Origin: Baffinella frigidus
Taxonomy: Eukaryota > Cryptophyceae > Cryptomonadales > Baffinellaceae
Length of the DNA stretch: 23,991 bases
Direction of reading: 5' to 3'
Assembly (NCBI GenBank): GCA_026770585.1
Contig: MU647044.1
Coordinates: forward strand, 13,734-37,724
Shown here: positions 2,840 to 21,465 of the stretch, in pieces
How positions within the stretch are numbered: position 1 is the stretch's first letter
Layout of the letters: each line of letters begins with the position of its first letter
Position numbers and translations under genes: made by a program
The notes under the pieces: model-generated
Seen by the model: only the letters and a program-made list of their open reading frames with translations
Database searches by the model: none
Told to the model about the DNA's origin: nothing

Positions 2840-2887
2840 TAACCACCCCCAAGGGGTGGATCGTTCAATGGACCGTCTCGCCCACTA

Positions 2888-3004: not shown

Positions 3005-3200
3005 TAACGCCCATAACCACCCCTAAGGGGTGGATCGTTCTGATTACTGATTACTGAATTTATTAAAGAGGGTTCGCCGTTATTGCCAAACCCGTGCCAT
3101 TACCAGACTATGATCGGTCCATTTTATACCCCGCTCAGTCTGTCTCCGAGGGATGCTCCCCGAAGATTGGCGCGGATGAAGTAAACGACGAAGGAGAGGT

Positions 3201-4395: not shown

Positions 4396-4396
4396 G

Positions 4397-4469
4397 TGGA
4401 GAAGCCGGGTATCGATCCCGGTGCCTGTCGCATGCGAAGCGACCGCTCTACCAAGTGAGCTACTCCCCC
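4397..4469 (-). tRNA. tRNA-Ala (anticodon CGC)
   Basis: A 73-nt cloverleaf with no intron. The acceptor stem GGGGGAG pairs with CTTCTCC, including G3:U70, the classical alanine identity pair. The D arm is GCTC/GAGC, the anticodon arm GTCGC-TTCGCAT-GCGAC puts CGC at 34-36, and the T arm is CCGGG-ATCGATA-CCCGG with the B-box core GGATCGATACC. The discriminator is A73 and CCA is not encoded. On the minus strand a run of six T (4387-4392) lies a few bases past the 3' end, as expected for a Pol III terminator. It stands alone between repeats. Confidence 0.95.
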
Positions 4470-5967: not shown

Positions 5968-6136
5968 AGATTTGTACCACAGGGCTATCCCCGCGTGATC
6001 TGAGAAAAGAAGTTATCAAAAGGATTAAGAGGAATTGGAACTCCGCCTGGATTTCCCGGGTTTGGACCAGGGTCTAGAGAGTGGTGCAAATCTGGTGGGT
6101 TGGTGCATGATGAGAACACGCCAGATTGGAGGGCTA

Positions 6137-6253
6137 CAGGGATACCTCGCTCATAAGAAACTGCTTCCCCCTAGGACCCTACAGTAGGACTAAGCCGTGG
6201 GCCCTACGGTGGTCCTAGGGGGGGGGCAGTTTCTTATGAGCGAGGTATCCCTG
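6137..6253. mobile_element. MITE family A, copy A5 (TIR variant)
   Basis: Full length, TA-flanked (6135-6136, 6254-6255). Both TIRs carry the same change relative to the family: CAGGGATACC and GGTATCCCTG, so pairing is kept. Confidence 0.9.
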
Positions 6254-6290
6254 TAGTGGGTGCACGCAGCCCAGTTCAGTACAAGAGATC

Positions 6291-6480
6291 CTAGCTCTGC
6301 CTCCGTCGGCTTGACCGACTACAGGGGTACCTCGCTCATAAGAAAGCGCTCCCCCCCCTAGGACCAGCATGGGGCCCTAAGCATAGGCCTACTGTAGGGT
6401 CCTGAGAGGAGGCGCTTTCTTGTGAGCGAGGTACCCCTGTATGCTCAAGTTGACATTTCCCGGATTGGTACCAGGTGGGG
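6291..6480. mobile_element. Family D element, copy D6, split by MITE A6
   Basis: CTAGCTCTGCCTCCGTCGGC begins at 6291. The sequence is interrupted after GACTA (6321) by A6 and resumes at 6442 with GCTCAAGTTGACAT. The right end is not recognisable, so the boundary is approximate. Confidence 0.6.
6322..6439. mobile_element. MITE family A, copy A6, nested in D6
   Basis: Full-length family A element with TA at 6320-6321 and 6440-6441, inserted into the TA of the family D word GACTATTCTCAAG (intact in D1 at about 5710). Confidence 0.9.
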
Positions 6481-6730: not shown

Positions 6731-6853
6731 CAGGGGTACATGTACCTCGCTCATAAGAAACTGCCCCCCCCTAGGACCCTACAGTAGGCCTATGCCTAGG
6801 GCCCGATGGTGGTCCTGGGGTGGGGGCGGTTTCTTATGAGCGAGGTACCCCTG
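6731..6853. mobile_element. MITE family A, copy A7
   Basis: Full length, TA-flanked (6729-6730, 6854-6855). The left TIR has a small insertion (GGGGTACATGTACC). Inserted in an E-like segment (CCACCAGCCCTCAG). Confidence 0.9.
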
Positions 6854-7137
6854 TAGAGGGACTCAGGCAGAACCCTCTAGCGAAAGACGGGGGGGGGGGG
6901 GCGGGCGCGGAGGGGGGGGGTAGGTACCCCTGCAGGAGTTCTGCACAAGGGTGTCTCTGGGTGCCCAGTGCTGCACTCTGGGGAGGGCACGAGTGACCTG
7001 TCTCTACGCCCTCTGTGGGGGGAAATGCATGGCGCCCGTGTTGGTACATGTAATGAAAATCGGCAATCTCTCGTGAGATTCACGAGCAGTTTCTCTCTCA
7101 CCACGCCGTAGGATTCACAAGTTGGTCGATATGCCTA

Positions 7138-7256
7138 CAGGGGTACCTCGCTCACAAGAAACTGCCCCCCCCTAGGACCCCACAGTAGGACCATGCCTGG
7201 GGCCCTATGGTGGTCCTAGGGGGGGGGGGCGGTTTCTGATGAGCGAGGTACCCCTG
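7138..7256. mobile_element. MITE family A, copy A8
   Basis: Full length, TA-flanked (7136-7137, 7257-7258). The motif CCACCACGCCGTAGGA lies on both sides (about 7101 and 7289), so it sits in a small local duplication. Confidence 0.9.
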
Positions 7257-7353
7257 TACAGGGGTTACATGTACTCGAAAATAAGGCCCACCACGCCGTA
7301 GGAGCCTACCTGTATGCACCCCCACCGAGGCTGTGTCAGAGCTGGTCCCGTGA

Positions 7354-8130: not shown

Positions 8131-8232
8131 TAGGCTATGACCTTGAGGCTTGATCCAATCCCGCCATAGCCGGTCACCTGACCCTTCCGTGGAAAGTCCC
8201 GGTAGGCCCATCTACGGGATGGTTTATAGGTA

Positions 8233-8325
8233 CAGGGGTACCTCGCTCATAAGGAACCGCCGCCCCCTAGGACCCTGCGGTGGTCCTTGGCTCGGGGGCG
8301 GTTTCTTATGGGCGAGGTACCCCTG
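8233..8325. mobile_element. MITE family A, copy A10 (93 bp, shortened core)
   Basis: Both family A TIRs, TA at 8231-8232 and 8326-8327, core shortened. Its right TA is also the left flank of B5. Confidence 0.88.
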
Positions 8326-8327
8326 TA

Positions 8328-8428: not shown

Positions 8429-8605
8429 TGCCTTCGCGCGGGCGGCCGCAGGGGAGCCTGACGGCTGTATTCTAAAAGATATCCTCTCAACACATAAGCT
8501 ATGCTCTCAAAGATATCTCGCTCACTCCTATGCGATGTCCTCGGCGAGTCTTTGCAGAAAGGCTGCCACCGACCCATACGCCAACACCATCCTGGCGCCG
8601 GGGGG

Positions 8606-8717
8606 GTTTAGGGTTTAGGGTTCAGGGTTTAGGGTTCAGGGTTTAGGGTTCAGGGTTGAGGGTTGAGGGTTGAGGGTTTTAGGGTTTAGGGTTAGGGTTT
8701 AGGGTTAAGGGTTGAGG
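8606..8717. repeat. Interstitial telomere-like array (TTTAGGG/TTCAGGG)
   Basis: About 15 units of TTTAGGG with TTCAGGG, TTGAGGG variants. A shorter patch follows at about 8934-8955. Confidence 0.9.
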
Positions 8718-8959
8718 GTCTTTCAGAGTCTAGAGCTGCCCTGTGCAAGCGTGTTGCCGCTGAAAAGTTGCTCGCGTGCAGGCTTGCACGACTTTCTCAC
8801 GTCATTCGCCAAGCACACACAGTCCACGCCAGGCCACACCAGGCCACACGTCCAAACGCAACGTGTCATGCTAAAAGCGTTTCGTGGTACAGCTGAGCTG
8901 TTGCCACGCGCGAAAAAAAATCGTCTGTTTCGGGGGTTAGGGTGTAGGGTTTAGGGACC

Positions 8960-9824: not shown

Positions 9825-9883
9825 CTAAGATCCCGACCCTTGGCAGTTGTGGGACAGCGAGGAGGCGCGCCGTTGGAGCTGCT
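9825..9883 (-). CDS. Alternative terminal exon of the aquaporin-like gene (exon 13')
   Basis: A second copy of the exon 13 acceptor edge, CGCAG|AG CAG CTC CAA, keeps the same phase and reads QLQRRASSLSHNCQGSGS then TAG. The 60 bp upstream also match the intron before exon 13. Everywhere else in this gene acceptor-edge copies lie upstream of the true exon, so by that rule this distal copy could be the original and 9963-10060 the duplicate. Confidence 0.4.
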
Positions 9884-9962
9884 CTGCGCGTCGCCAGTCC
9901 ACCGTACCCCCAGGTGTGATCCCAGGACCCCGGAGCAGCGCTGCTGCCCTCCCGCGCTGCTT

Positions 9963-10060
9963 TCAGGGCAGGTCTAATTTTGGAGAGTCCGTTGAAGAAA
10001 GGCTGGAGAAAATTGCCGAAATCGGCAGGTTCAGCGGGGAGGCGCGCCGTTGAAGCTGCT
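9963..10060 (-). CDS. Aquaporin exon 13 (terminal exon)
   Basis: 31 codons plus TGA after GACGCGCAG|: EQLQRRASPLNLPISAIFS.. ending KLDLP. The phase fits exon 12. A competing terminal exon lies at 9825-9883. Confidence 0.5.
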
Positions 10061-12740
10061 CTGCGCGTCGTCAGTCCACCGTGCCCCCAGGTGCGAGCCC
10101 AGGCATTGACGAGGCTGGAGTCCTGATTAAACTCATCAACCCGCGCTTCCCCCACCCTCTCTCGCCACTCACCCCCCCACCTACTCTCGCCTCCCACCCT
10201 CACCCGCGATGCTGGCACGCCGCACCCCCCTGGGACCACCTTAGGGCCCTAGGCATAGGCCTACTGTAGGGTCCTAGGGGGGGGCGGTTTCTTATGAGCG
10301 AGGTACCCCTGCAGTGCTCATGACCTCTCTCGGCGCCCCTACTCAGAGACAGAGCCTCGGTGGGGGTGCATACGTGGCGGCCGTGTGGGTAGTAATCAAG
10401 GTCTCACGCTCCACGGCTCTAATTTGCAACACGGCGGCCATGTTAGCTGCGATGCGAGAAATCGCGGATTTAGGAGGGGCGAGGCCGCGCCGGCCAAGGC
10501 CCGACACACAAGCGAGAGAGAACTTACCTTCATTAGTCAACCATCGAGGCTCATCACCTGTCCGACCGAGGCTCACACTTCCTTACAACATGCACATTTA
10601 TGATCACACACCAGACCTACAGCAGCACATTCATCGGCCTGGCCTCCTCCCCCCCTTGATGCAGCGTCTGATACGCCCCACCAGAAGCCCCTGTTGACAC
10701 GCAGGAAGTCAAAGATAATCCGAGGACATGTTTAATTTAAAAGAAAATGGATCCCTATGTGTTGATAGGAGTTGGAAGAAGATTAATTAGGGCCCTGAGT
10801 CAATTCAATCAGGGCAGAATCCGGTTTGATAGTCCGTTTTCTTTTAAATTAAACATGTTCCAGGATGAAAGCCTCATTCGACTCCAAGGAACCCAGCGGT
10901 TTGTACCACAGAGGGGTCGGATTCCGGCGCCCCGTGGTACAAAATGCCGTCTCGAAAAGCCTTCGAGAGGGAAATGCGCGGGGGAGAAGCTTCGTTGAAG
11001 GAGGTCTAGCTCTGTCGCAGTCTATTTCGTCTCACCAATTTGGCGAGCTCGGGCTCTTTCCCGCTCCAAAGTCGACGGATTTGTACCACGCACCAAGAAC
11101 GTCAACTTGAGAATAGTCAGACAACTCGACTGAGGCAGAGCCTAGCTCTGTCCCAGTAAATTTGGGCTCGCCATTATTTCGCCCCCCCAAAATTTCACAG
11201 GTGAATTTCGACCCCCCCCATGAAATTCACCTGTGAAATTTCAAGGGGGGCGAAATAATGAAATTTCAAGGGGGGCGAAATAATGGCGAGCCCAAATCTA
11301 AGCGGGACAGAGCTAGAGAGCGAGGGGTTCGTCAGGTTATGTACCTCGGCGGTCACTTGAGCCATTGTCCATCTCGGAGAGGAGCAGCGCGGCGTGCGGG
11401 CGGGACACGATCGTCAGCGCCACGTACGCTACGGCCGTGCCGCCCGGGTGCCTGCAGTTGTAAAATAATTATCCCCTAAGTGGCGAACGGGCAAACATTC
11501 GCCCTAACTCGCCCTAGGCAGGTCCTAGGGCCCTACCGTAGGGCGTATGAGCCTACTCGCCACTTGAGGGATAAGATTTTTTTACCGAATTGTAACAGTA
11601 ACCCAATTATAAGAAGACGCTACCGCCGTGCCGCCCGCGTGCCTGCAGTTGTAAAAAAACAAACCGAATGGTAAGAACCCAATTAACCGAATTGTAAGAA
11701 CCCAATTAGAAGCGAATTGTAAGAACCCAAATAACCGAATTGTAAGAACCGAATTATAAGAAGACGTAACGGCCGTGCCGCCCTCGTGCCTGCAGGTGTA
11801 AAATGATTATCCCTCAAGTGGCGAGTAGGCTAATACACCCTACCGTAGGGCCCTAGGACCTGCCTAGGACCTGTAGGGGGTCCTTTAAGACCCCCTCGCC
11901 ACTTAACGGATAAGATTTTTTTACCGAATTGTAAGAGTAACCCAATTATAAGAGGACGCAACGGTCGTGCCGCCCGCGTGCCTGCAGTTAAAATATTAAT
12001 AATAAGAATTCCATGTTTAAAATCACAAGAGTGTCATGTCAAAACTCAGGAGATTCCCATGACAAAAAATCGTTGTGTTGTGAGCGAGGCACCCCTGAGA
12101 AACCTTTTCCGCTGGAATCCATCAGGGAATACATGCCGCCAGGTCAAAAAGTGGGATATCACTTACAAGTCTCATTGTTAATTTGATACGGCGCGGACGT
12201 GGAAAGGAAGATTTTGGGTTAAGCGTGGACGTGGAGATGACGAAAGGTTGCGTGTCCCAAGTTCTTGACACACTCATTTGTAGCACGAAACGAAACATTG
12301 CGTTCTGAAATTCCTACTTATGATCTGGCGTGGTAAACGGGTATCTCGAACACACGTCCCTGCTGACACCTATGCTCTCTTGTAAACTGCACCCCTCCCG
12401 CAAACCGCACCCCTCACTGGGACCGCCGCATGGAAATTACCCTGAAATCGAAGAGTTCTCCGCCTGAAGTCTAGCGCTGCCTCAGTCTATTTGGCCTCAC
12501 CACTTTGGCGAGCCCGGGCTGTTATCCGCTCCAAAGTTAACGGATTCGTGCAGCAAGCGCAGCATGTCAACTTGAGAATAGTTTTGTCCGCTCCAAAGTT
12601 GATGGATTCGTAGTTTGAGAAGTCGGTCAACCCGAGTGAGGCAGCGCTGGACCTGGTGGTGAAGTGCTTTCATGGCGAGTACAATGTTACTCAGGCAGAG
12701 CTAGGAAGGGTCGGTGGGGTTGGCACCTAGGGTGCACTCC

Positions 12741-12828
<88 letters not shown>

Positions 12829-15800
12829 ACCCGGAGAGACACAGAGGTTGACCTTTGCACGCCGGAGATATGCCTACAGTAGGGCTATGCCTAGGGCCCT
12901 ATGGTGGTCCTGGGGGGGGGACAGTTTCTTGTGAGCGAGGTACCCCTGTAGGGGTTGGCACCTTTGCACGCCGGAGATATGCTGTGGGTATCTAGGATCT
13001 AAGGGCATATCAGGACGCAAGGTTATGAGGACGCCTAGGTAGATTCACTGAGGCCTCCGAAGTAGATTCACTGAAGAGAGTTGACTGGAAACTTCGGTCC
13101 TTCTAAGAGTGTCCGGCATCTGCCCGGCAATCTCGAGCCCACTTTACCCCGATAAATTTCAGTTCTCAACCTTGTACGAAACCTGTCTTTTCATTTCTCA
13201 TCCTTCTATCAGGGGCCATGTTGGGGGCCGTGCTGTACCGAAGCGTGTTCCTGGGGGGGGGCACGGGGACCTTGCAGGCGGGGGCAGTCTTCAGAGCTAG
13301 GGCCACCCAGCGGATTTCGAAGGGATTTCGAATAACCCCTAAGCGATAAGACCTGGGACCCTACGGTAGGCAATCCGTAGGTACATAGGGGGGGTTCCTA
13401 CGGATAAGGTAACGGGAAATGGCCTAGATTTGAACATATTTTCCCTTCGTAGCCCACTGTGTGGGTTTAGATTTGAACACATTTTCCCTTCGTAGCCCGC
13501 TGTGTGGGTTTATATTTGAACATATTTTCCCTTCGTAGCCCGCTGTGTGGGTCGGCACCTTTGCACATATTTTCCCTTCGTAGCCCACTGTGTGGATTTA
13601 CATTTGAACCTATTTCCACTTCGTACCCCGCTGTGAGGGTTGGCACCTTTGTACGCCAGAGAATGAAGCAACTCTCTCTCTCACTCTCTCCCTCTCCCTG
13701 CCTCTCTCTCTCTCTCCCTCTCTCTCTCCCTCTCTCACCTTTGCACGCCGGAGATATGCCCGCTGTCCTTCATCTGTCCGGCAATCTCCGACCCGGCAAA
13801 CGGCCCTGGGGTTTTGGGTTTTGGGTTTTGGGTTTTGGGTTTTGGGTTTTGGGTTTGGGTTTTTGGGTTTTGGGTTTTGGGTTTCGGGTTTTGGGGTTGC
13901 GGGCGAGAGGTTCAGAGTTTCGGGTCGCACCGGCACTCTCCGAGAGTTTCAGCGACTTCCCATCCTGCGAAACGGTGCCTTCTAGGGACGCGACCGCGTG
14001 TCGGACCTCCGGATACCACACGCGTCCGGACACGCTGCGCCCAACCGTCGCGGTTTTGAGTCAGAAAAGACGCGGTTTCGCGTCAGCCAGCCCCAAAGGT
14101 GGCGATTTTTCGCGCCAGCAAGAGCCAGAGGTGGCGAGTTCAGTGTGCCGGACCTCCGGATACCGTACGCACCCGGACACGCTGCGCCCAACCGTTGCGA
14201 GTTCCGTTGACGGGCGGTGTGGGTTTAGGGTTCAGGGTTGAGGGGCTTTGGATTAGGGTTCAGGGTTTCGGGTTTCGGGGTTATGGTTGGGGGCGTACCG
14301 AAGAAGGAACGCGTCGGTAGCGTCCACCTCGACCTTATCCACAGAGAGCACCACCCGATACTCCTGCGGCGCCCCACTAGCCCCCTGCGGTTTGCATGAT
14401 AACGCGTCAGCAATGTGACACGTCAGCATTGCTGACGCCACAACGCGTCAGCACCGTGTCCGTGCACGTGCCCAACACACTGCATGTCCGTGCTGCACAC
14501 ACCCTCCGAGCTTCCCCAACACACCCCTATCGAGAGCACCACCCTGTACTCCTGGGGCGCCCCCGCCGGCCCCTGCGGGATGACGCGTCAGCAATCAGCC
14601 TGGTTAACCCGGGAACAAGTATTTTTCTTTTAAAACCGTGGCAACAAAAATTACTACACATAAGTCACGTCCCGAAGCATTTGTGTAGTAATTTTCGTGC
14701 AAATGTTTAAAAGAAAAATACTTGTTCCCGGATGATGATGGTACTCAACACACTGCATGACCGTGCTCTACACACCCTAGGGTGTCCAACACACTGCATG
14801 CCCGAGGACCCTTATCCACAGACAGCACCACCCGACACTCCTGCGGCGCTCCCAGTGGCCCCTGCGGCGTGCAGGATTCAGGAGTGTAGGGGTTAGGGAT
14901 AAGGCCCCACTAACCGCATGGTCATCATGTCAGCAAGCGACAGTCGTGATGACGCACACCGCGTCAGCACCGTGTCCGTGCAGCGTGTCCAGCACACTGC
15001 ACGTCTGTGCAAACCGCAACGGTTGGGTGCAGCGTGTCCGGACGCGACTGGTACACCCTAGGGTGTGCAACACATTACATTATGGCCGTGCATACCCTCC
15101 TGTCTACAGAGAGCACCACCCTCCCTGTACTCGAGTACAGGCCGTAGGGCCCTAGGGACGGTCCTATGAAACATAGGTCCTAGGAGCCCTACCCTAGGGA
15201 GGGTCCTATGAAACATAGGTCCTAGGAGCCCTACGGCCTCCCGTAGGCAATACCGTGCCCCCACTGGCCCCTGCGGCGTGCGGCGTTTCGGGGGTGAGGG
15301 TTTAGGGGTTTGGGGTTTGGGGTTTGGGGTTTGGGGTATGGGGTTTGGGGTTTGGGGTTCGGGGGTTTATGCGCCCCTGCGGGCCCCTGAGGCGTGGGGG
15401 GTTTCGAGTTTCGGGTTTCGGCGTTAGGGTTTTAGGGTTTCGGGTTTCGGGGAAAAGGTCCCGGACACACCACCTCGGTCTGTCGTCTCACGCCCTCGAA
15501 GACCGCCCCCGCCTGCAAGGTCCCCGTGCATGAACCATCGCTACAAGCCTACAGTGGGCCATCCGTAGGGACCCGGACACACCTCCGACTGGCGTCGAAC
15601 GCCCTCGAAGACGCAGCCTACATCGTCCCCGTGGAGCCCCCCAGGAACACGCTTCGATTGCCGGACTATTCTCAAGTCGACATCCTGGGTCTGCGGTACA
15701 ACGCCGTCAACTTCGGAGCGGACAAGAGCCCGGGCTGAACACACCTCGGTCTGTCTTCGAACGCCCTCGAAGACCGCCCCCGCCTGCAAGGTCCCCGTGC

Positions 15801-18800
15801 CTCCCCCCAGGAACACGCTTCGGTACAGCACGGCCCCCAACACAGCCCCTGATAGAAGGATGAGAAATGAAAAGACAGGTTTCGTACAAGGTTGAGAACT
15901 GAAATTTATCGGGGGATCAGATCCATTTTTATTATTATCTGAAGGTGGAAGATGCTGTCTGAAATGGCCCTGTGACCCCCCCCAGGAACATGCTTCGGTA
16001 CAGCACGGCCCCCAACACGGCCCTTGGATTTAACGGGAAATCACATTCAACTGTCCACACACATTCGAGCTCTGTGGGGGCTGTGCACAGCCTCGGTGGG
16101 GGTGCCAGGAAAAGCTCAAATGTGAGCGTGGATAGGGTGGTCGTAGTAATAAGGGTCTCTGTCATTTAGTAGCTTTGGGTGGTTAGCTCTTTGTGCGTTG
16201 GCAGCTTTGTGCGGTACCTAGTTAGTTTATGGTTAGACAGTTAGCGAGTCACTTCAAAAGGACATGCCCCGCAGAACCCTTGGTCGGATAGCGAGGGGGC
16301 AAACGGATCTTTTTAATTCGGGTACGAATTACGATTCGTCTCGAACTTGTGGGCGCTGAAACTCCAAATCGGAGTTTCAGCCCTCACAAGTTGGACACGA
16401 CCAAAAAAATACCCGATCCATTTGCCCCCTCGCTATCCGAGCATGGCTCACCTCGGCATGTCTTCTTCTATGAGTTGTAGTATATGTACGTATATACGTG
16501 AATCAAGGTTACCTTATGTACGTATATACGTGTATACAGGTTACCTTACATGTGGACATGCCCCGCAGAACTCATCTCCGCGTAGTTAGCAAGTTGACCC
16601 CTTTCCAATAGGTTAGGACCTGTCTACAGGGAGTTGAAGAGGTTAATAAAGAAGGAGGAGGAGGAGAAGAAGAAGCCCCGCAGAACGCACCCGCAAATGT
16701 CGCGAACTACAGGTTGGTGACATTCCCGTTCATTTCGTTTTCGGGTCTCTCTTGGTTAGTAGATTGTTATGTTAGCTACTCAGTTCATTTCGTTTTCGGC
16801 CACTTAGCAGCCACCGGGGGCTTCACGGATACAGCCCCTCTAAACGATTTGTACTAGAATCTTATCCATTGTCTCAGAACCTAACCGAAATTTCACCTTG
16901 AATTCAAGGTGAAAAGGTCCTCGGTCGCTGCTGAGTGGTTGGAACGCACCTGAAAATGTCGACAGGAGATACGCCCACAAGTTGATCACGTTCCCGCGCA
17001 CCACCTGGTTTGAGGTTTGGGGTTTGGGGTTTAGGGTTTGGGGGTTGGGGTTTAGGGTTTGGGGTTTGGGGTTTAGGGTTGAAGGTTTAGGGTTTAGGGT
17101 TCCGGGTTCCGGGTTCCGGGTTTGGGGTTTGGGGTTTGGGTTTTGGGGTTTGGGTTTTGGGGTCTCGGATTTAGTGTTTCAGGTTTCGGGTTTCGGGTTT
17201 CGGGTCTCGGGTCTCGGATTTAGGGTTTAGGGTGTAGGGTTTAGGGTTTAGGGTTTAGGGTGTAGGGTTTAGAGTTTAGGGTTTAGGGTTTAGGGTGTAG
17301 GATGTTGGGTTCAGGGTTTCGGGCATCACCGCCGCTGCGAACCCCGCCGCAGGGTTCATTGCTCCTCCGCATAACACACCACGCGCCAGGATGCCTACTG
17401 TCACGGCGAGGCCCCCTGTTTGTGTGAAGGGGGGGGGATGAGCACGGTGTGCGAGAGAGTGGGGATGAGAGAGGGAGAGGGAGAGAGAGAGGGAGGGAGA
17501 GAGGGAGGGAGAGGGAGAGGGAGAGGGAGAGAGAGAGAAGTGCCGCGAATAGCGCCCCGCGTGCGAGATTACCCACGGTGACTGCGAGCCCTCCTGCGTG
17601 TGTGCGAGAGAATGAGAATGCGCCGTGTGTTAATAGGGTAATGGACTAAAAATGGGGTAGTCAGGCCTACGGCATTGCCTAGGACCTCCTACTGTAGGGC
17701 AAAATCCTAGGAATTTTTGGTCATAGGAGCCCTACGGCCTACGGTAGGCAATTCCGTAGGCATAACTACCCCCATTTTTAGTCCGTTAGCCTATGAGTGT
17801 GTGCGAGAGAACGCGAATGAGAGTGGGAGAGGGAGAGGGTGAGAGAGAGGGAGCGGGAGAGGGAGAGGAAGAGGGAGAGGGGGAGGGAGAGGGAGAGGGA
17901 GAGAGATAGAGAATCTCAATCACCTCGTTGCTATCTTACGGGTGGGGTTTCATGCTATGGTAAAGCTACGTCGAGGCCAAGATAGCAAATTCCACCCTTA
18001 AGATAACACAAAACGGAGTTGAAAATTGAATCGGATTCCTTATCAAATCTGGAGGACCTGCCAGAGGGGAGAAGGGGCGGGTGTAGGCGCGGTCGTGCAC
18101 GTCGACGGCCGTCGCAAGAATCTCAACGCCAGAAACAGGCTTCCTCTTTGCTATCTTAGGGGTGAATTTCATGTTTTTTTAAAGCTAAGCCAAGGCCAAG
18201 ATAGCATATCCCACCCTTAAACACGAAAAAAATCGTGTTTTAATCTAGTAAATAACCGGGTTTCGCGAGAAATGTGGGCGACCGGCGAGGGGCGAGAAGG
18301 GGCGGGTGTAGGCGCGGTTGTGCACGTCGACGGCCGTCGCCAGGATCGTCAACGCCAGGGAAAACGTCAGGACAGCTTCACGCAGCGATGCGCCCGCGAG
18401 ATCCCCGAGGTCCTGGTTTAGGGGTTTGGGGGTTTAGGGGCTTAGGGGTTTAGGGGTTTAGGGGTTAGGGTTTAGGGTTCAGGATGGCGAAGGGGTTGGG
18501 AGTAAGGGGTTAGGGTTTAGGGTTCAGGAGGGCGAAGGGGTTAGGGGTAAGGGTTTAGGGTTTAGGGTTCAGGGTGAGCTGCTAGCTGTCTTCAGATGCC
18601 CAACCCCCCCTGACACCCTAACCCAGAAGCCCTATGCCCTAACCCCTAACCTGTAAACCCTAACCCTTACACCCCCACACCCGAAACCCTAAACGCCCTA
18701 AACCTTGTACACACGTGCCTGATTTTTCCCAAGCTGCCTTAACCCCTAGACCCCAAGTCCTGTACCGTATACCTCCTAAACTCGAAACGATATACCCGCG

Positions 18801-21465
18801 AGCGCACCTGGTAGTTTTCGAGGTGGTAGGGCGGCGCCGGCGCCCTAAATCCTAAACCCTTTACGTCCTAAGCCATATACGCCATACGTCCTCAATCCCA
18901 AACCCTATACATCCTGAGATCTAACCCCTGTACCCGCACACACACCTGGTAGTTTTCGAGGTGGTAGGGCAGTGCCGGTGCGTACTCCTCGAACCTTTCC
19001 GGCGTGCAACCCGTCCAGAGCAGGAATCCTACCAACGCGCCTGCGGGGGGGGGGGGAGGGGGGTTGAGGGAGGGTTGTGTGTGTGGATGAGCGCTCACGT
19101 GGGGGAAGCAGGGTGGGTTTCCGCTCGCACTCCAGAGGATGGATCCGAGCAACGCGCCTGTTGCTTCGGTGTTTAGGGTGTAGGGTGTAGGGTGTAGGGT
19201 TCTGAAGACGGCTATGGCAGGGTTGAGGTTTTAGGGTTTAGGGTGGAGGGGGGTTGTGGAGGTCCAGAGAAGGAGAGTCTGAGGAGCGCGCCTGCGGGGG
19301 GAGGGAAATGTGTGGAGGTTTACGGGGGGGGGGGGCAATGGGCGTCGCACTCGACGCGCGCCATGCATCGCTCTCAGAGAGTGACACAGTCTACACACCT
19401 ATGTAAAATATTTATTTCTACAAAAAAAATCCTCAGCATTCATGGGAAACCATCGCTATGCCCCCCCGTGTGGGACCCTAGTTCACTGCGAGCCAGGATA
19501 TTTTACCTCAAGTCAACAAAGCTGATCCTCGACAGTAAGTTGCCATTTCGTTTAGATGGACCTGCTCTGGGAGCAGGCATTTGACTTAAGGCGCTGGCTT
19601 TCAGGGGGAGTGAACTTAGGCGAAATGTTCTGGCTCCGAGTGTAGTTCGGGAACGGCACCTGAAAACTGAGCGGCGAGCTCGGCAGCGAAGACGTCAACC
19701 TATCCGTAGGAGCCCCCCTATGTCCCTACGGGTTGCCTACCGTAGGGTCCTAGGTCTGATCGATTAGGGGTTATTCGAAATTCCTTCGAAGTCCGCTGTG
19801 TGGTTCGGTAACGGCACGTGAGAACTGAGCGGCGAGCTCGGCAGCGAAGACGTCACCCTCAATGGCGCGCGCTACTAACAGCGCCGTCGACACCGCTGGG
19901 TTCAGCTGGAGGCAACCCAGGGGCAAATCTTAAGTCAATCTCCCACAGATGCACTCGGATCCCGAGTGCATTTGTATGGGAGTTGACTTAAGAAACCATC
20001 GATTTGCCCTCAAGTTGCCTTCAGGGTGGGTAGTTCGGGGGCGGCACCTGAGAACTGAGCGGCGAGCTCAGCAGCGAAGACGTCACCCTCAATAGCGCGC
20101 GCCACAAAGAGGGCCGTCGACACTGCCGGGTTCAGTTTCGCCCCGCTCCCGTTCCCGCCTGCAGGTGGGAAAACATGTTGTTCAGCCACACACACCTTTT
20201 GTCCTCGATGGCCCAAACAGACTGAGCCAGAGAGAGCGCCCCGCTCCCGTTTCCCCTTGCTTGTCTTGCTGTTAGAGAGAGATTTTGTTGAGGTCAGGTG
20301 CGTCGTCGAGCGGCGGGTTCCACCAGCCCTCCGAGGCGGACCAAATCGAGGCTGGAGCATGCGCCAATTCCTCGGGCGGCACCTTCGAAAACGAATATGC
20401 CACCAGAGGAAATGGCTCCAAACAATCGTCGATTTGGTCCGCTTCGCAGGGCTGGTGGTTGTATGCTTTCCTGCGTGGAAGTGCATGTGGTGTCCTCTGC
20501 GGAGGTGGGGAGGAGACTTTGATCTGGCCGAGGGACTCGAGCGGAACCTGTCGCCACTAAATTTCTTGTACCATCAGTTGCCCAAACGTGCACAATATTT
20601 CACTCGGAGTGATAGAGAATTTGTAGCGTAGGTTCCACACTACGCTTGAGCTGAGGGTGGTCCATCGCAAAAGTCAACTCATCAGTAGGCTAGAGTTTGG
20701 CATTCTGCCAAAAGTTTTGGCAGAATGTACAGGATCCTGTACATTATCCCTCTGTGTCAACTTGTGATTGCTCCCGATCACGTCTTAAGTAGCCAGAGAA
20801 TCGGCCAGCTCAAGGGGGCGGGAGAGAAACTAGCTCTGTCTCAGTCTATTTGGGCTCACCAAGTTGGTGCTCCCGGGCTCTTTTCCGCTCCAAAGTTGAC
20901 AGATTCGTACCGCACACACAGCATGTTTGAGAACAGTGTGACCGTCAAAGAGTGCGGCAGAGGGAGAGAGCACCGGCAGTGGCGTAGAGTAGCGCGGCGT
21001 ACGCAAAGCCGCCCCCCAGCGCTGCGATCACCACGCCCCCCCCATTGCCGTGGTGGTCTGCGAACCTGCGCATGGAACGGTTGAGTTCGCGAAAGGGGGA
21101 TTTCAGCTCGCGGAAGGGCAGATTTGGGTTGAGAGTCGGTGAGCTGCGCTATCTGTCGCGGAAAAGCGACGCTTGCCCCCCCACCCCGCCTCCTCCCTCG
21201 CCACCGTTGCCAAGCGCTGAGGGGTGGGTGGTTACCCCGCACCGGCGTTGGTGGCGTCTGCAGCTTGCGCCAAAGCACCAGCCGAGAGAAAGTGGAGCAT
21301 CGTTGACCCGATGAATTCCGCGCTCAAGTGCTTCTTCGCGGACCCCGAGGGGTACCACCGCGTGTTCTGGAAGAGGTTCTCCCAGAACTTGGGCGCAAGA
21401 GATTCGCCCGAGGAGCGCAGGCCGCCACCCAGCGTGACGCCCACCGCTGAGGAGCGCATCGCCAT
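9963..21465 (-). CDS. Aquaporin-family channel (MIP) with long C-terminal extension, 13 exons
   Basis: Spliced minus-strand gene, 449 codons. Exons: 21243-21465, 20974-21057, 20048-20158, 18946-19040, 18283-18412, 17330-17415, 16950-17004, 15745-15848, 14299-14384, 13931-14034, 13739-13805, 11345-11451, 9963-10060. All introns are CAG acceptor/G|GT donor and every junction agrees in phase. The family predicts a six-helix membrane channel for water or small neutral solutes. Seen: AEFIG in helix 1 (Glu50), SGAKLNPAV (NPA 112-114), E183xxxT in helix 4, SPLAGGLAVTVGILA leading into GGAMNPAAGF (NPA 235-237), and GAVLGAVLYRSVF closing helix 6. Residue 238, normally the selectivity-filter Arg, is Ala. 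Residues from about 275 on match nothing I recognise. The start ATG has CAACCATGG context and an in-frame TGA 15 nt upstream. Family assignment is strong; expression is unproven, and exons 9-13 rest on phase and open frame only. Confidence 0.82.
10222..10311. mobile_element. MITE family A, truncated copy A11
   Basis: Core and right TIR (..CTTATGAGCGAGGTACCCCTG) present; the left TIR is missing. Lies in intron 12. Confidence 0.8.
10340..10415. repeat. Dispersed repeat M, copy 1
   Basis: AGCCTCGGTGGGGGTGC...GTAGTAATCAAGGTCTC, matching 16071-16165; a fragment is reversed at about 7315-7335. Minus-strand reading APPPRLC and ETLITT in both. Confidence 0.5.
10455..10585 (-). repeat. Dispersed repeat L, copy 3 (reversed)
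   Basis: Reverse complement of the units at 6520 and 7757, including GAACTTACCTTCATTAG (the GGTAAGT word on the minus strand). In intron 12. Confidence 0.65.
10726..10858. mobile_element. Inverted-repeat element with 22-bp perfect ends
   Basis: ACATGTTTAATTTAAAAGAA.. at 10726 is perfectly inverted at 10837-10858. The AT-rich ends contrast with the GC-rich surroundings. The interior has a CCCTGA..TCAGGG hairpin. Single copy in the window. Confidence 0.7.
11006..11145. mobile_element. Family D element, copy D2 (reverse of D1)
   Basis: CTAGCTCTGTCGCAGTCTAT ... CCGCTCCAAAGTCGACGG ... CAACTTGAGAATAGTC ... CTGAGGCAGAGCCTAG; 140 bp. Its right end overlaps the foldback element at 11143. Confidence 0.75.
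11143..11315. mobile_element. Foldback element C4 built from a family D end
   Basis: TAGCTCTGTCCCAGTAAATT..GGGCTCGCC is repeated inverted at the right end (GGCGAGCCCAAAT..GGGACAGAGCTA). Inner arms AAATTTCACAGGTGAATTT also pair. The right arm has an extra tandem copy of a 24-25 bp unit (GGGGGGCGAAATAATG). Confidence 0.8.
11345..11451 (-). CDS. Aquaporin exon 12 (C-terminal extension)
   Basis: 35 codons between CAACTGCAG| and CGAG|GTACAT: HPGGTAVAYVALTIVSRPHA.. then a polar SEMDNGSSDRR. Three acceptor-edge copies lie upstream. Confidence 0.68.
11472..11571. mobile_element. MITE family B, copy B6 (reversed)
   Basis: TCCCCTAAGTGGCG to GCCACTTGAGGGA, TA at 11470-11471 and 11572-11573. The core reads in the opposite direction to B7. 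It sits just upstream of exon 12, within about 20 bp of its acceptor. Confidence 0.88.
11620..11642 (-). pseudogene. Acceptor-edge copy of exon 12 (copy 1)
   Basis: CTGCAG|G CAC GCG GGC GGC ACG, reading HAGGTAVA against HPGGTAVA in exon 12; then it diverges. Confidence 0.75.
11658..11760 (+). repeat. Minisatellite CCGAATTGTAAGAACCCAATTA
   Basis: About five imperfect copies of a 22-bp unit. Single copies also flank the exon 12 edge copies (about 11584 and 11923). Confidence 0.8.
11767..11789 (-). pseudogene. Acceptor-edge copy of exon 12 (copy 2)
   Basis: CTGCAG|G CAC GAG GGC GGC ACG GCC, reading HEGGTAV. Confidence 0.75.
11810..11910. mobile_element. MITE family B, copy B7
   Basis: TCCCTCAAGTGGCGAGTAGG to CGCCACTTAACGGA, TA at 11808-11809 and 11911-11912. 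Tail hairpin GGGGGTCCTTTAAGACCCCC. Same target position as B6 in a duplicated unit, opposite orientation. Confidence 0.88.
11959..11981 (-). pseudogene. Acceptor-edge copy of exon 12 (copy 3)
   Basis: CTGCAG|G CAC GCG GGC GGC ACG ACC, reading HAGGTTVA. Confidence 0.75.
11990..12470. other. Intron 11 stretch without identified gene
   Basis: Mostly unique sequence. TGTGAGCGAGGCACCCCTGA at 12080-12099 is a decayed family A TIR. No open frame with recognisable content. Confidence 0.4.
12471..12650. mobile_element. Family D element, copy D3 (with internal duplication)
   Basis: CTAGCGCTGCCTCAGTCTAT to GAGTGAGGCAGCGCTGG. Both ends carry the same change (CTCTG to CGCTG). CCGCTCCAAAGTTGATGGAT occurs twice, lengthening it to 180 bp. 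Confidence 0.7.
12738..12832 (+). repeat. Perfect 7-bp array (CCCTCAA)
   Basis: About 13-14 uninterrupted copies of CCCTCAA, a telomere-heptamer variant, so expansion or homogenisation looks recent. Confidence 0.95.
12853..12982 (-). pseudogene. Two donor-edge copies of exon 11 around a truncated MITE
   Basis: CTTTGCACGCCGGAGATATG (plus strand) at 12853-12873 and again at 12962-12982; on the minus strand this is the CATATCTCCGGCGTGCAAAG| end of exon 11 followed by GT. A12 separates them. Confidence 0.75.
12874..12948. mobile_element. MITE family A, truncated copy A12
   Basis: Core (CTACAGTAGGGCTATGCC..) and right TIR (..GTGAGCGAGGTACCCCTG) without the left TIR. TA follows at 12949-12950. 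Confidence 0.8.
13151..13292 (+). pseudogene. Inverted copy of aquaporin exon 8 with upstream intron
   Basis: Plus-strand copy nearly identical to the reverse complement of 15772-15915: intron end CTTCTATCAG| then the coding part GAMLGAVLYRSVFLGGG and TLQAGAVF. It is cut off where F2 begins. Orientation is opposite to the gene, so it cannot be spliced into it. Confidence 0.8.
13303..13467. mobile_element. Family F element, copy F2
   Basis: CCACCCAGCGGATTTCGAAG to CCCTTCGTAGCCCACTGTGT; interior ACCCTACGGTAGGCAATCCG and GGTAACGGGAAAT. Its right end has been amplified in tandem just downstream. Confidence 0.7.
13426..13640 (+). repeat. Tandem array of the family F right end (about 43-bp period)
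   Basis: Five copies of GATTTGAACATATTTTCCC-TTCGTAGCCCGCTGTGTGGG; starts of the CCCTTCG word at about 13443, 13486, 13529, 13574 and 13616. Exon 11 donor-edge words (GGCACCTTTGCAC) are mixed in at 13559 and 13647. Confidence 0.85.
13673..13738 (+). repeat. CT-rich microsatellite
   Basis: (CTCTCTCC)n run ending directly at the exon 11 donor, so on the sense strand a GA-rich tract follows |GTGAGAG. Confidence 0.85.
13739..13805 (-). CDS. Aquaporin exon 11 (C-terminal extension)
   Basis: 21 codons: PFAGSEIAGQMKDSGHIS ending GVQ. Acceptor AACCCCAG| is the edge of a 7-bp array; donor CAAAG|GTGAGA. Several donor-side copies (CGCCGGAGATATGC on the plus strand) follow downstream. Confidence 0.62.
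13806..13930. repeat. Intron 10: telomere-like array from splice site to splice site
   Basis: About 13 units of GGGTTTT (plus strand) then degenerate units. The array starts at the exon 11 acceptor and runs to near the exon 10 donor, so the 125-bp intron is essentially all repeat. Confidence 0.85.
13931..14034 (-). CDS. Aquaporin exon 10 (C-terminal extension)
   Basis: 34 codons between TTGGGCGCAG| and AGTGCCG|GTGCGA: VSGRVWYPEVRHAVASL followed by EGTVSQDGKSLKLSESA. The joined Arg codon with exon 9 is in frame. Confidence 0.68.
14146..14181 (-). pseudogene. Acceptor-edge copy of exon 10
   Basis: GGGCGCAG|C GTG TCC GGG TGC GTA CGG TAT.., reading VSGCVRYPEVRH against VSGRVWYPEVRH. About 140-150 bp of exon edge plus intron appears duplicated. 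A plus-strand fragment of the same edge lies at 15017-15049. Confidence 0.75.
14221..14298. repeat. Telomere-like array at the donor of exon 9
   Basis: Degenerate TTTAGGG/TTCAGGG/TTTCGGG units running right up to the exon 9 donor. Confidence 0.7.
14299..14384 (-). CDS. Aquaporin exon 9 (C-terminal extension)
   Basis: 28 codons, phase 0 in: GASGAPQEYRVVLSV.., alternating hydrophobic/polar and likely beta-rich. Four or more partial acceptor-edge copies lie upstream. Confidence 0.68.
14530..14861 (-). pseudogene. Two acceptor-edge copies of exon 9
   Basis: 14530-14572: CCCGCAG| then GPAGAPQEYRVVLS. 14809-14861: GCCGCAG| then GPLGAPQECRVVLSVDK. Both keep the AG acceptor and phase before diverging. 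The palindrome at 14609-14731 separates them. Confidence 0.8.
14609..14731. mobile_element. Inverted-repeat element H (AT-rich, 123 bp)
   Basis: CCGGGAACAAGTATTTTTCT is inverted at the right end. A second pair AAAATTACTACACA / TGTGTAGTAATTTT is internal. Single copy here. Confidence 0.85.
15104..15386 (-). pseudogene. Further short edge copies of exon 9
   Basis: 15104-15131 (EYR..VVLSV-like, rearranged), 15254-15270 (CCGCAG|GGGCCAGTGGGGGC, GPVGA) and 15369-15386 (CCTCAG|GGGCCCGCAGGGGC, GPAGA). Each keeps an AG before the duplicated exon start. Confidence 0.6.
15141..15240. mobile_element. Unclassified palindromic element with a doubled unit
   Basis: GGTCCTATGAAACATAGGTC is present twice, bounded by GGCCGTAGGGC and GCCCTACGGCC. 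Same CCTAGG/CCCTAC vocabulary as families A, B, F and I. Confidence 0.7.
15297..15455. repeat. Telomere-like arrays (GGGTTTGG, TTTCGGG types)
   Basis: 15297-15366 GGGGTTT units; 15400-15455 TTTCGGG/TTTAGGG units, separated by an exon 9 edge copy. Confidence 0.8.
15474..15656 (-). pseudogene. Two donor-edge copies of exon 8
   Basis: 15474-15529 reads TGTLQAGAVFEGVRRQTEV then GTGTGT; 15583-15656 reads GGLHGDDVGCVFEGVRRQSE then |GTGTGT. Both lie downstream of exon 8 and keep the donor. Confidence 0.8.
15660..15737. mobile_element. Family D fragment, copy D7 (no ends)
   Basis: GGACTATTCTCAAGTCGACA..GTACAACGCCGTCAACTTCG..AAGAGCCCGGGC matches the D interior; terminal CTAGCTCTG words are missing. 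It abuts the exon 8 donor. Confidence 0.65.
15745..15848 (-). CDS. Aquaporin exon 8 (second half of helix 6, start of tail)
   Basis: 34 codons after CTATCAG|: GAVLGAVLYRSVFLGGG finishes helix 6, then TLQAGAVFEGVRRQTE begins the soluble tail. Donor ACCGAG|GTGTGT. The exon and about 65 bp of its upstream intron also occur inverted at 13151-13292. Confidence 0.8.
15979..16023 (-). pseudogene. Acceptor-side copy of exon 8 without a usable acceptor
   Basis: Reads AVLGAVLYRSMFLGG, but an AG at the required position is absent (CCAA|GG), so it cannot replace exon 8 in frame. Lies upstream of exon 8. Confidence 0.75.
16071..16165. repeat. Dispersed repeat M, copy 2
   Basis: CAGCCTCGGTGGGGGTGCCA...GTAGTAATAAGGGTCTC, as at 10340-10415. 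Confidence 0.5.
16284..16440. mobile_element. Inverted-repeat element, 157 bp
   Basis: TCGGATAGCGAGGGGGCAAA is inverted at the right end (TTTGCCCCCTCGCTATCCGA). A second hairpin is nested (CTGAAACTCC..GGAGTTTCAG inside AACTTGTG..CACAAGTT). Confidence 0.85.
16484..16556 (+). repeat. Tandem TGTACGTATATACGTG / GGTTACCTTA
   Basis: Two copies of about 35 bp; each contains the palindrome GTACGTATATACGT-like core. Confidence 0.75.
16553..16732 (-). pseudogene. Degenerate copies of the exon 7 donor edge
   Basis: 16691-16732 reads NGNVTNL, stop, FATFAG then |GTGCGTTC, a decayed exon 7 with an in-frame TAG. The following intron word GTTCTGCGGGGC recurs at about 16677, 16560 and 16266. Confidence 0.65.
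16891..16914. repeat. 24-bp perfect palindrome
   Basis: TTTCACCTTGAATTCAAGGT GAAA, 35 bp downstream of the exon 7 donor in intron 7. Confidence 0.8.
16950..17004 (-). CDS. Aquaporin exon 7 (first half of helix 6)
   Basis: 18 codons, phase 0 in: VVRGNVINLWAYLLSTFS. It matches the family region between NPA2 and helix 6 in length and character. The acceptor CAAACCAG| is the edge of intron 6, which is wholly telomere-like. Confidence 0.8.
17005..17329. repeat. Intron 6: telomere-like array filling the whole intron
   Basis: From the exon 7 acceptor to the exon 6 donor the 325 bp are TTTAGGG, TTTGGGG, TTCCGGG, TTTCGGG units with almost nothing else. The sense strand is C-rich. Confidence 0.9.
17330..17415 (-). 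CDS. Aquaporin exon 6 (helix 5, second NPA box)
   Basis: 28 codons. GLAVTVGILARG is helix 5 and GGAMNPAAGFAAA is loop E. NPA is followed by Ala, not the usual Arg. Donor GCGGCG|GTGATG. Confidence 0.9.
17451..17540 (+). repeat. GA-rich microsatellite
   Basis: GAGAGGGAGAGGGAGAGAGA-type run in intron 5. Confidence 0.85.
17537..17593 (-). pseudogene. Acceptor-edge copy of exon 6
   Basis: CACGCAG| then GLAVTVGNLARGALFAALL against GLAVTVGILARGVLCGG in exon 6; diverges before the NPA box. Upstream of the true exon, acceptor kept. Confidence 0.85.
17633..17794. mobile_element. Family I element, copy I1 (162 bp)
   Basis: ATAGGGTAATGGACTAAAAA is inverted at the right end (TTTTTAGTCCGTTAGCCTAT). Core CCTAGG / CCCTACGGCCTACGG. 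Second copy at 23398-23550. Confidence 0.85.
17815..17911 (+). repeat. GA-rich microsatellite
   Basis: GAGAGGGAGAGG-type run; the same GTGTGCGAGAGAA words flank I1 on both sides. Confidence 0.8.
17929..18007. mobile_element. Family K element, copy K1
   Basis: TGCTATCTTACGGGTGGGGT ... AAGGCCAAGATAGC-like ... CCACCCTTAAGATAAC; closely related to K2 at 18149-18222. Confidence 0.6.
18058..18130 (-). pseudogene. Donor-side copy of exon 5
   Basis: Reads EILATAVDVHDRAYTRPF then SPLA and |GTCCTCC in the same phase as exon 5 (one-residue difference, D for N). The 5' part of the exon is missing and K2 lies just beyond. Confidence 0.85.
18149..18222. mobile_element. Family K element, copy K2
   Basis: TGCTATCTTAGGGGTGAATT ... 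GCCAAGGCCAAGATAGCATA ... CCACCCTTAA. Confidence 0.6.
18283..18412 (-). CDS. Aquaporin exon 5 (helix 4)
   Basis: 43 codons in phase 0. REAVLTFSLALTILATAV carries the helix-4 glutamate and ExxxT motif; the exon ends in TRPFSPLA, which matches the family aPla word before helix 5. The acceptor CTAAACCAG| emerges directly from a telomere-like array. Confidence 0.88.
18413..18580. repeat. Telomere-like array starting at the exon 5 acceptor
   Basis: TTTAGGGG/TTTAGGG units from the splice site onward, with a roughly 60-bp higher-order repeat (TTCAGGA..GGCGAAGGGGTTAGGG). Confidence 0.9.
18604..18935. repeat. Telomere-like sequence in the opposite orientation, with an exon 4 donor-edge copy
   Basis: Degenerate CCCTAA/CCCTAAAC units on the plus strand up to the exon 4 donor. 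18808-18842 is a copy of the exon 4 end (APALPYHLENYQ then |GTGCGC). Confidence 0.75.
18946..19040 (-). CDS. Aquaporin exon 4 (helix 3 and loop C)
   Basis: 31 codons; GALVGFLLWTG completes helix 3 after the split Gly codon, then a polar loop PERFEEYAPALPYHLENYQ. Acceptor C-rich..CCGCAG|, donor TACCAG|GTGTGT. Confidence 0.85.
19132..19291 (-). pseudogene. Two acceptor-edge copies of exon 4
   Basis: 19132-19157: CAACAG| then GALLGSILW; 19265-19291: CCGCAG| then GALLRLSFSG, against GALVGFLLW in exon 4. Telomere-like units (19168-19245) lie between them. Confidence 0.75.
19660..19908 (-). pseudogene. Two donor-side copies of exon 3, split by F3
   Basis: 19818-19908 reads LNPAVSTALLVARAIEG.. and FAAELAAQFS, but the donor-edge G is C. 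19660-19697 keeps DVFAAELAAQFS then |GTGCCG. F3 occupies 19698-19803. Confidence 0.88.
19698..19803. mobile_element. Family F element, copy F3 (truncated, reversed)
   Basis: TATCCGTAGGAGCCCCCCTA..GGGTTGCCTACCGTAGGGTC..TCGAAGTCCGCTGTGTGG; one end keeps the F TIR, the other is lost. Confidence 0.7.
19911..20019. mobile_element. Inverted-repeat element G (109 bp)
   Basis: GGCAACCCAGGGGCAAATCT pairs with ATTTGCCCTCAAGTTGCC; inner arms CTTAAGTCAA..CTCCCA and TGGGAGTTGACTTAAG; centre GCACTCGGATCCCGAGTGC. It lies between exon 3 and its first copy. Confidence 0.8.
20048..20158 (-). CDS. Aquaporin exon 3 (first NPA box, start of helix 3)
   Basis: 36 codons between CACCTGCAG| and TTCTCAG|GTGCCG. Reads GNGSGAKLNPAVSTALFVA, the classical loop B, then FAAELAAQFS entering helix 3. 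Two donor-side partial copies follow downstream. Confidence 0.9.
20320..20458. mobile_element. Family E element, copy E1 (139 bp)
   Basis: CCACCAGCCCTCCGAGGCGG ..ACCAAATCGA is inverted at the right end (TCGATTTGGTCCGC..GGGCTGGTGG). In intron 2. Confidence 0.8.
20701..20741. repeat. Two adjoining perfect palindromes
   Basis: A 27-bp hairpin (CATTCTGCCAAAA-G-TTTTGGCAGAATG) is followed directly by the 14-bp palindrome TACAGGATCCTGTA. Confidence 0.85.
20830..20965. mobile_element. Family D element, copy D4
   Basis: CTAGCTCTGTCTCAGTCTAT..CCGCTCCAAAGTTGACAG..; the right end is decayed (GTGCGGCAGAGG). It ends about 10 bp short of the exon 2 donor. Confidence 0.65.
20974..21057 (-). CDS. Aquaporin exon 2 (helix 2)
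   Basis: 27 codons between TTCGCAG| and GCCG|GTGCTC. GGGVVIAALGGGFAYAALLY is helix 2. The frame is also open upstream for another 42 codons or so, but only this acceptor gives the phase exon 1 needs. Confidence 0.82.
21243..21465 (-). CDS. Aquaporin exon 1 (N-terminus and helix 1)
   Basis: 74 codons plus one base. Residues 1-45 are a polar N-terminus; HLSAEFIGSTMLHFLSAGAL is helix 1 with the family AExxG signature. Donor AACGCCG|GTGCGG. Confidence 0.85.

Follow-up and report, generated by a model that had tools for sequence, protein, structure and literature searches.

Small tandem duplications can arise by fill-in at staggered DNA breaks; the work that showed this used breaks made by nucleases in the cells of mouse and human, and states that surveys of human and plant insertions hint at the same model (PMC8355091). 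Mobile repeats are linked with introns in another group of systems, the introners and other transposon-made introns. Here we analyse 23,991 nt of Baffinella frigidus DNA (contig MU647044.1; C708:13734-37724 in our numbering), referred to below as the window, and in it a minus-strand MIP gene whose exon edges recur as truncated, same-strand copies in the neighbouring introns. Copies of acceptor edges (AG plus exon start) lie upstream of the exon, and copies of donor edges (exon end plus GT) lie downstream. Each of six genes examined in this genome has such copies. The best explanation, in our estimate with a probability of about two in three, is that short local duplications spanning splice sites are frequent and owe their polarity to selection on the coding sequence.

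RESULTS

Exon edges of the MIP gene are copied into adjacent introns

Comparison of the window with itself by BLAST returned local same-strand duplicates of exon borders. For the edge test, 46-nt edges (38 nt of exon and 8 nt of intron) were searched against the adjacent introns and against 100 randomised versions of each; a copy was finally accepted when none of the 100 randomised introns reached its score and z was over 4.5. At this cut, 12 of the 23 edges of the MIP gene (6/11 acceptor, 6/12 donor) have a copy on the predicted side, and 1 of 22, a mid-piece of exon 11, has one on the opposite side. A first run, which used another shuffling and a z over 4, gave 13/23 and 1/22, with 0/23 and 1/22 for inverted matches; the exon 10 donor copy, at z 4.6 in that run, fell below the final cut and was dropped.

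The initial annotation had placed donor copies downstream of exons 3, 4, 5, 7, 8 and 11, all of which were confirmed, and acceptor copies upstream of exons 4, 6, 8, 9, 10 and 12. The latter hold for exons 4, 8, 9, 10 and 12; the exon 6 copy fails as DNA, where 6 of 100 shuffles reach its score, but is clear as protein (GGLAVTVGNLARGALF versus GGLAVTVGILARGVLC). The plus-strand gene at 22-856 had been said to behave likewise, and a donor edge is indeed duplicated there. The copies and the repeats that border them are as follows (percentages are identities).

20237-20260, minus strand: exon 3 acceptor-edge copy, 24 nt, 87.5%
19797-19905, minus strand: exon 3 donor-edge copy, 109 nt, 87% (versus 20027-20135; self-BLAST)
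19640-19701, minus strand: second exon 3 donor-edge copy, 92% (self-BLAST)
19702-19797, minus strand: part of a dispersed repeat between the two exon 3 donor-edge copies, ending at the copy border
19262-19305, minus strand: exon 4 acceptor-edge copy, 77%
19131-19160, minus strand: exon 4 acceptor-edge copy, 83%
18764-18843, minus strand: exon 4 donor-edge copy, 79% (versus 18902-18981; self-BLAST)
17923-18132, minus strand: exon 5 donor-edge copy with duplicated intron, 221 columns, 76%, 10 bp off the first unit, a tandem unit
17541-17596, minus strand: exon 6 acceptor-edge copy, not significant as DNA, clear as protein
16683-16702, minus strand: exon 7 donor-edge copy, 12 exon nt and 8 intron nt
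15959-16026, minus strand: exon 8 acceptor-edge copy, 87% (versus 15784-15851; self-BLAST)
15577-15656, minus strand: exon 8 donor-edge copy, 81%
15471-15529, minus strand: exon 8 donor-edge copy, 95% (versus 15742-15800; self-BLAST)
14810-14877, minus strand: exon 9 acceptor-edge copy, 87%
14532-14595, minus strand: exon 9 acceptor-edge copy, 77%
14145-14199, minus strand: exon 10 acceptor-edge copy, 89%
13644-13662, minus strand: exon 11 donor-edge copy, 89%, at the edge of the head-to-tail array 13425-13654
12959-12982, minus strand: exon 11 donor-edge copy, 24 nt, 100%
12851-12874, minus strand: exon 11 donor-edge copy, 24 nt, 100%
12874-12949, minus strand: truncated miniature inverted-repeat transposable element (MITE) between these two exon 11 donor-edge copies, abutting both
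11956-11995, minus strand: exon 12 acceptor-edge copy, 88%
11769-11824, minus strand: exon 12 acceptor-edge copy, 89%
11617-11659, minus strand: exon 12 acceptor-edge copy, 93%
10032-10103, minus strand: duplicate of 9855-9926, 92%, perhaps an acceptor edge belonging to the last exon, which is unplaced (self-BLAST)
44-126, plus strand: neighbouring gene, exon end and donor (exon from the initial annotation and the sequence)
513-596, plus strand: neighbouring gene, downstream donor-edge copy, 90%, with a MITE between the two at 367-490 (self-BLAST)

The annotation had also proposed that introns grow by swallowing pieces of exon. In support, 3846 of the 8854 intronic nt of the MIP gene fall in the intervals from a true site out to the farthest copy recognised for it (distances summed by hand); repeats, however, account for much of the intron length too.

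As a further control, the window was cut into tiles. Of the exon tiles, 30 of 59 had a same-strand copy within 1.5 kb, as did 89 of 213 tiles in introns and 64 of 295 between genes; tiles at exon borders (6/17), MITE-like tiles (43/85 in introns, 71/115 intergenic) and low-complexity tiles (85/103) were counted apart. Because many intron-tile matches are the copies themselves, this control is weak, and we relied on the edge test instead.

The host gene encodes a predicted aquaporin-type channel

Joined together, 12 exons of the gene read as one 422-residue open frame. A previous model of exons 1-8 matched the Pfam profile MIP (PF00230) at 7e-29 over profile positions 7-222 of 222; the same earlier model matched solved aquaporins at best at 1.9e-15 and environmental proteins with identity up to 71%. 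With this profile match and two NPA motifs, in exon 3 and exon 6, the product is predicted to be an aquaporin-type channel of the major intrinsic protein family. The gene model is as follows.

9825-21465, minus strand: MIP gene, exons 1-12 placed, last exon unplaced (low end from the initial annotation)
21236-21465, minus strand: exon 1, donor GCGGG/GTAACC
20974-21065, minus strand: exon 2
20048-20158, minus strand: exon 3, first NPA motif
18946-19040, minus strand: exon 4
18283-18412, minus strand: exon 5
17330-17415, minus strand: exon 6, second NPA motif
16950-17004, minus strand: exon 7
15745-15848, minus strand: exon 8, donor uncertain by 2 nt
14299-14384, minus strand: exon 9, acceptor uncertain by 8 nt
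13931-14034, minus strand: exon 10
13739-13805, minus strand: exon 11
11345-11451, minus strand: exon 12, donor uncertain

The borders between exons 1 and 2 and between exons 9 and 10 were corrected from an alignment to environmental homologues. A scripted spliced alignment to one of these, P0002, gave the identical position at 20 of 23 splice borders and disagreed with the model at the exon 8 donor (2 nt), the exon 9 acceptor (8 nt) and the exon 12 donor (12 nt). For the 8/9 junction, the spliced alignment leaves no gap against the homologue, so the two borders there carry an uncertainty of 2 and 8 nt. The last exon (13) stays unplaced; the position chosen by the spliced alignment, 9742-9711, was not believed. 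A search with 336 bases from the low end of the gene found no match among plasmids.

The pattern recurs in six genes with few exceptions to its polarity

Six genes were compared: the MIP gene, three TCP-1 chaperonin genes (L036, L037 and L038) and two HSP70 genes (L040 and L041). The latter five were located by Pfam PF00118 and PF00012, and their exons were fixed by homology. These exon lists are incomplete, with 12 exons (all but the last) for MIP, four for L036, seven for L037 (one without a donor), three each for L038 and L040, and 18 for L041, covering residues 169-614 of its homologue. Exon 5 of L037 has no placed donor, so the predicted side of exon 6 was taken as a 1.5-kb stretch that includes exon 5.

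With the six genes pooled, a copy was accepted at 25 of 87 edges on the predicted side and at 2 of 84 on the opposite side; the inverted controls gave 0/87 on the predicted side and 1/84 on the opposite side. Every gene has at least two edges copied on the predicted side; the habit is shared by other genes of the genome. Density varies: 5/11 edges are copied in L037 and 2/35 in L041. One HSP70 exon in L040 has four upstream and three downstream edge copies, one exon in L038 has five acceptor-edge copies, and edges of the TCP-1 delta gene are copied as well. By eye, an open stretch chosen regardless of genes (L008) contains an apparent exon, identified solely from the repetition of its borders. 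Upstream, three copies start at the acceptor and differ in their ends; downstream, three copies end at the donor and differ in their starts. Both kinds of copy are also apparent, by eye on the translation, in two short pieces (L042 and L043) of a second MIP gene.

The polarity had been called strict. The pooled counts uphold it as a rule, with a few rule-breakers that include an inverted copy of the exon 8 border (97%, 146 bp); this copy is recent and contrary to the rule. The exceptions in the window are the following.

13147-13292, plus strand: inverted copy, 97%, 146 bp, of the end of intron 7 and the start of exon 8 (15769-15914), lying in intron 11
15029-15053, plus strand: inverted 25-nt copy of the start of exon 10, lying in intron 8
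13110-13134: mid-exon piece of exon 11, lying in intron 11

A genome rich in repeats invites the suspicion that such copies are errors of assembly. They mostly differ from one another by several per cent, however, are separated by distinct spacers and occur on several contigs, and we give an assembly artefact next to no credence.

Copies mostly retain splice dinucleotides but are poor candidates for use

A junction-anchored search of the six genes yielded 42 copies (24 acceptor, 18 donor). The junction is aligned in 39 of these; the other three were excluded from the dinucleotide counts. The exon part of a copy has a median length of 35.5 nt for acceptors and 43 nt for donors, with mean identities of 0.904 and 0.915; past the splice site, homology ends after a median of 13 and 12 nt of intron, respectively. 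The median distance from copy to true site is 205.5 nt for acceptors and 236 nt for donors. The splice dinucleotide is retained in 18/22 acceptor and 17/17 donor copies (GT or GC), bearing out the rows of decoy splice sites that had been proposed. One chaperonin exon uses a GC donor, and its copy has GC too. The GT or GC and the intron bases in all 17 donor copies rule out RNA-derived copies that end exactly at the splice site.

We considered whether the copies are kept for use, as alternative exons, as splice-site buffers or as stations for recursive splicing. The complete retention of GT or GC among donor copies is in keeping with such a role, as are the synonymous-biased differences described below, above all in the exon 6 copy. 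However, 35/39 retained dinucleotides are near the expectation at an identity of about 0.91, and special preservation of decoy sites is unsupported. Extending an exon to its decoy introduces a stop codon in 17 of 20 cases in the MIP gene, and the pyrimidine fraction before the AG is 0.57 at decoy acceptors against 0.67 at true ones (in this analysis, acceptor copies without AG were shifted to an AG within 2 nt, which favours retention there). We therefore regard retention for use as quite improbable.

Some copies form tandem units, and others flank inserted DNA

The copies had been attributed to repeated tandem duplication of segments that straddle splice sites. The segments do straddle the sites, and some arrays consist of true tandem units; most of the pairs that we picked are nevertheless separated by 40-386 bp. 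Head-to-tail units with a gap of at most 10 bp occur in four arrays: at exon 5 (E5; 221 columns, 10 bp between units), at 13425-13654 (period 88, carrying an exon 11 donor copy), at L040 3696-4270 (period 192, 69%) and at L041 5284-5479 (period 88). Longer units with a gap are found at exon 12 (E12; 227 columns), in L038 (288 columns) and, by eye, in L008.

To describe the gaps we used 22 hand-picked pairs, delimited by their high-identity cores. Twenty are exon-edge pairs (some copy-versus-copy) from five of the six genes; one comes from the plus-strand gene, and one is a 98% pair in L038 that may be coding or non-coding. The cores are 40-386 bp apart. Weaker homology closes the gap in the E5 and L040 donor pairs, and the other 20 keep their 40-386 bp. 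Repeats in the inserts were defined against 117 kb of open sequence, as sequence shared with another contig. By this definition 13 of the 22 inserts contain some repeat, six consist of it to at least 85%, and in four a repeat touches both copies. Repeat coverage of the inserts exceeds the intron average in MIP (0.44 versus 0.23), L037 (0.49 versus 0.23) and L038 (0.82 versus 0.05, one of its pairs being outside the placed exons). By eye, pieces of palindromic elements end at a copy border at 12874-12949 and 19702-19797, and the insert at L038 5575/5811 is a telomere-like array.

The four close arrays and the longer gapped units at E12, L038 and L008 would be expected if plain head-to-tail tandem duplication of 90-400 bp units explained everything, MITE insertion and decay having since hidden the intron half. 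At a mean exon identity of 0.90-0.92 the intron half should then still align in the remaining pairs, yet homology ends a median of 12-13 nt past the site, and a repeat touches both copies in 4/22 picked pairs. This explanation is possible, with the odds somewhat against it.

Alternatively, mobile elements might make the duplications, either by MITE or introner-like insertion with an unusually long target-site duplication or by hairpin breakage and repair. The repeats in 13 of 22 inserts, the six that are repeat to at least 85% and the two palindromic pieces that end at a copy all point in this direction. Nine of the 22 inserts, on the other hand, contain no repeat within the 117-kb reference, one is made up of telomere-like sequence, some tandem units have no element, and coverage falls below the intron average in L040 and L036. 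We consider this origin of the duplications unlikely.

The repeats themselves deserve a brief description. An element of ~120 bp, palindromic and with the ends TACAGGGGTACCTCGCTCATAAGAAA, is present in many copies and both orientations within the window (367-490, 1081-1199, 1708-1822, 2885-3007, 6134-6255, 6319-6441, 6742-6856, 7135-7258 and 8231-8327), along with several other palindromic families. A database search with the MITE core gave 0 matches in viral contigs and 0 in genome contigs. Degenerate telomere-like arrays (CCCTAAA and variants) lie in introns and intergenic DNA at 600-815, 2300-2430, 8604-8719, 17014-17323 and elsewhere. In L038, 1471-1531 and 1902-1962 (oriented) form a 61-bp duplication at 98% with MITE-like elements between; it is among the youngest events.

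Differences between exon and copy are biased toward synonymous sites

The exon 6 copy differs from its exon mostly synonymously: 12 of 18 codons have a synonymous change, five a change of residue, and one is the same. The copy may thus have been coding for a time after duplication, or may derive from a diverged source. A paralogue was considered as that source; the two short pieces of the second MIP gene do not match. Similar counts were made over all copies that include at least 15 exon nt; those that share an exon are not independent of each other. Between exons and copies, 68 synonymous and 45 non-synonymous differences were counted over 342 and 978 sites, respectively, a ratio of proportions (pN/pS) of 0.23. 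Between copies, differences by codon position 1, 2 and 3 number 18/260, 21/260 and 54/258. For a neutral copy of a constrained exon, a pN/pS of about 0.5 is expected.

One reading of these numbers is that the copies are dated snapshots of exon edges, so that introns would archive past synonymous states of the exon; a bias toward codon position 3 between copies would follow. Splice borders would then be pasted into introns over and over, in many cases along with repeat DNA, and each gene would amount to a natural competition between near-equal sites. Joined to the view that the innermost pair of sites wins, under strict exon definition in a single-celled alga, this reading is tentative, and we are inclined to doubt it. 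In its stronger form, some copies, that of exon 6 for example, may have been or may still be read as protein.

Genome setting

The assembly has 1364 contigs with 382,457,362 bases in total. A cryptophyte alga is the probable host, a placement based on one protein, HSP70, as COX1 gave no match in the assembly. Among the best 120 of 7991 matches to the HSP70 of L039, identities were 90% for Guillardia theta, 88% for Hanusia phi, 88% for Hemiselmis tepida, 85% for H. andersenii and 80% for a partial Baffinella frigidus sequence. L039 and C709:130108-134621 carry two HSP70 genes that read open along the full length of the profile, face opposite ways and score identically; intron-bearing HSP70 genes lie elsewhere in the genome. 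Within the window, a tRNA-Ala (CGC) gene is found at 4396-4469 on the minus strand, between two protein genes.

DISCUSSION

From the position, polarity and surroundings of the copies we infer break repair with fill-in, a filter of selection and use by the spliceosome of the innermost sites. Duplications would fall anywhere in the genome and be frequent, short and local. Some would produce head-to-tail, or almost head-to-tail, repeats of a unit measuring about 90-350 bp. Many others would produce two copies of a short piece (about 20-110 bp) with other DNA in between, as might happen if the overhangs at a staggered break were filled in and the ends then rejoined around captured DNA, often a broken MITE or a telomere-like repeat. 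A duplicated piece within an exon would break the protein and be removed, and one within an intron would fade, neither copy being constrained. A duplication across a splice site would do no harm as long as the innermost site is the one attached to the body of the exon: the extra edge and the AG or GT that it carries would leave with the spliced intron, and constraint on the exon would keep one partner of the pair recognisable. With frame-breaking copies removed by selection, the polarity would be forced, and no directed process would be needed. Splicing would have to prefer the acceptor and donor closest to the exon although similar sites lie farther out, a preference in line with exon definition; if sites were instead paired by proximity across the intron, the decoys would be used.

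Several observations weigh against this explanation. Three of 255 control edge tests also scored, and the two opposite-side matches, the mid-piece of exon 11 and a 15-nt match in L041, speak against a strict polarity. The sample is six genes, chosen through Pfam matches in unmasked contigs, and the HSP70 gene L041 shows few copies. Insert repeat coverage lies below the intron average in L040 (0.15 versus 0.29) and L036 (0.09 versus 0.39), so that the coupling to repeats is not general. Finally, the pN/pS and the excess of third-position differences between copies fit poorly with copies that were neutral from birth. This last difficulty would be eased if a slowly changing exon had been copied at several points in time, if the other allele had served as the template, or if the copies had once been coding.

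The pattern touches two old questions, how introns lengthen and how a choice is made among near-equal splice sites, which are usually studied in one artificial gene at a time. All six genes examined appear to offer a natural experiment, with similar donors downstream, similar acceptors upstream and the innermost ones coding. If complementary DNA were to confirm the innermost choice, this would point to exon definition in an alga and provide many natural decoys of graded age. The copies would also record duplications that are hidden elsewhere by selection, so that duplication size, type of insert and rate could be read from the genome.

The components of this pattern (duplication at borders, introners, repeats at intron ends, duplications by repair) have been described; what is new, as far as we know, is their combination and density. 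We found no description of exon-edge duplication as a genome-wide habit in open-access titles and the openings of abstracts, a body of text that mostly excludes subscription papers. As in tandem duplication, the copies form local arrays on the same strand. Introners, repeated elements whose ends are also those of the intron, offer one comparison: the elements seen here are internal to introns, flanked by duplicated exon edge measuring tens of bp. Repeats of the MIP gene lie within introns and their ends do not fall at the true splice sites. Intron gain under the AGGT model places a new intron between two copies; the copies described here sit within introns, and the exons bordering these introns match homologues in the same order. 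The fill-in duplications of PMC8355091 resemble the copies in that tracts of tens of bp are duplicated from overhanging break ends; the part of that report consulted makes no link to splice sites, in contrast to the Baffinella edges. In the potato RdRp gene, a duplication likewise runs across the boundary of intron and exon and provides a second set of splice signals, but it is one event that made a new intron, whereas here the exon-intron structure fits the homologues and edges are duplicated repeatedly in six genes (PMC4974935). Direct repeats near splice sites are alike in lying at intron borders; they measure 4-30 bp and pair the two ends of one intron, whereas here each pair consists of an exon edge and its duplicate in the intron's interior (PMC11782384).
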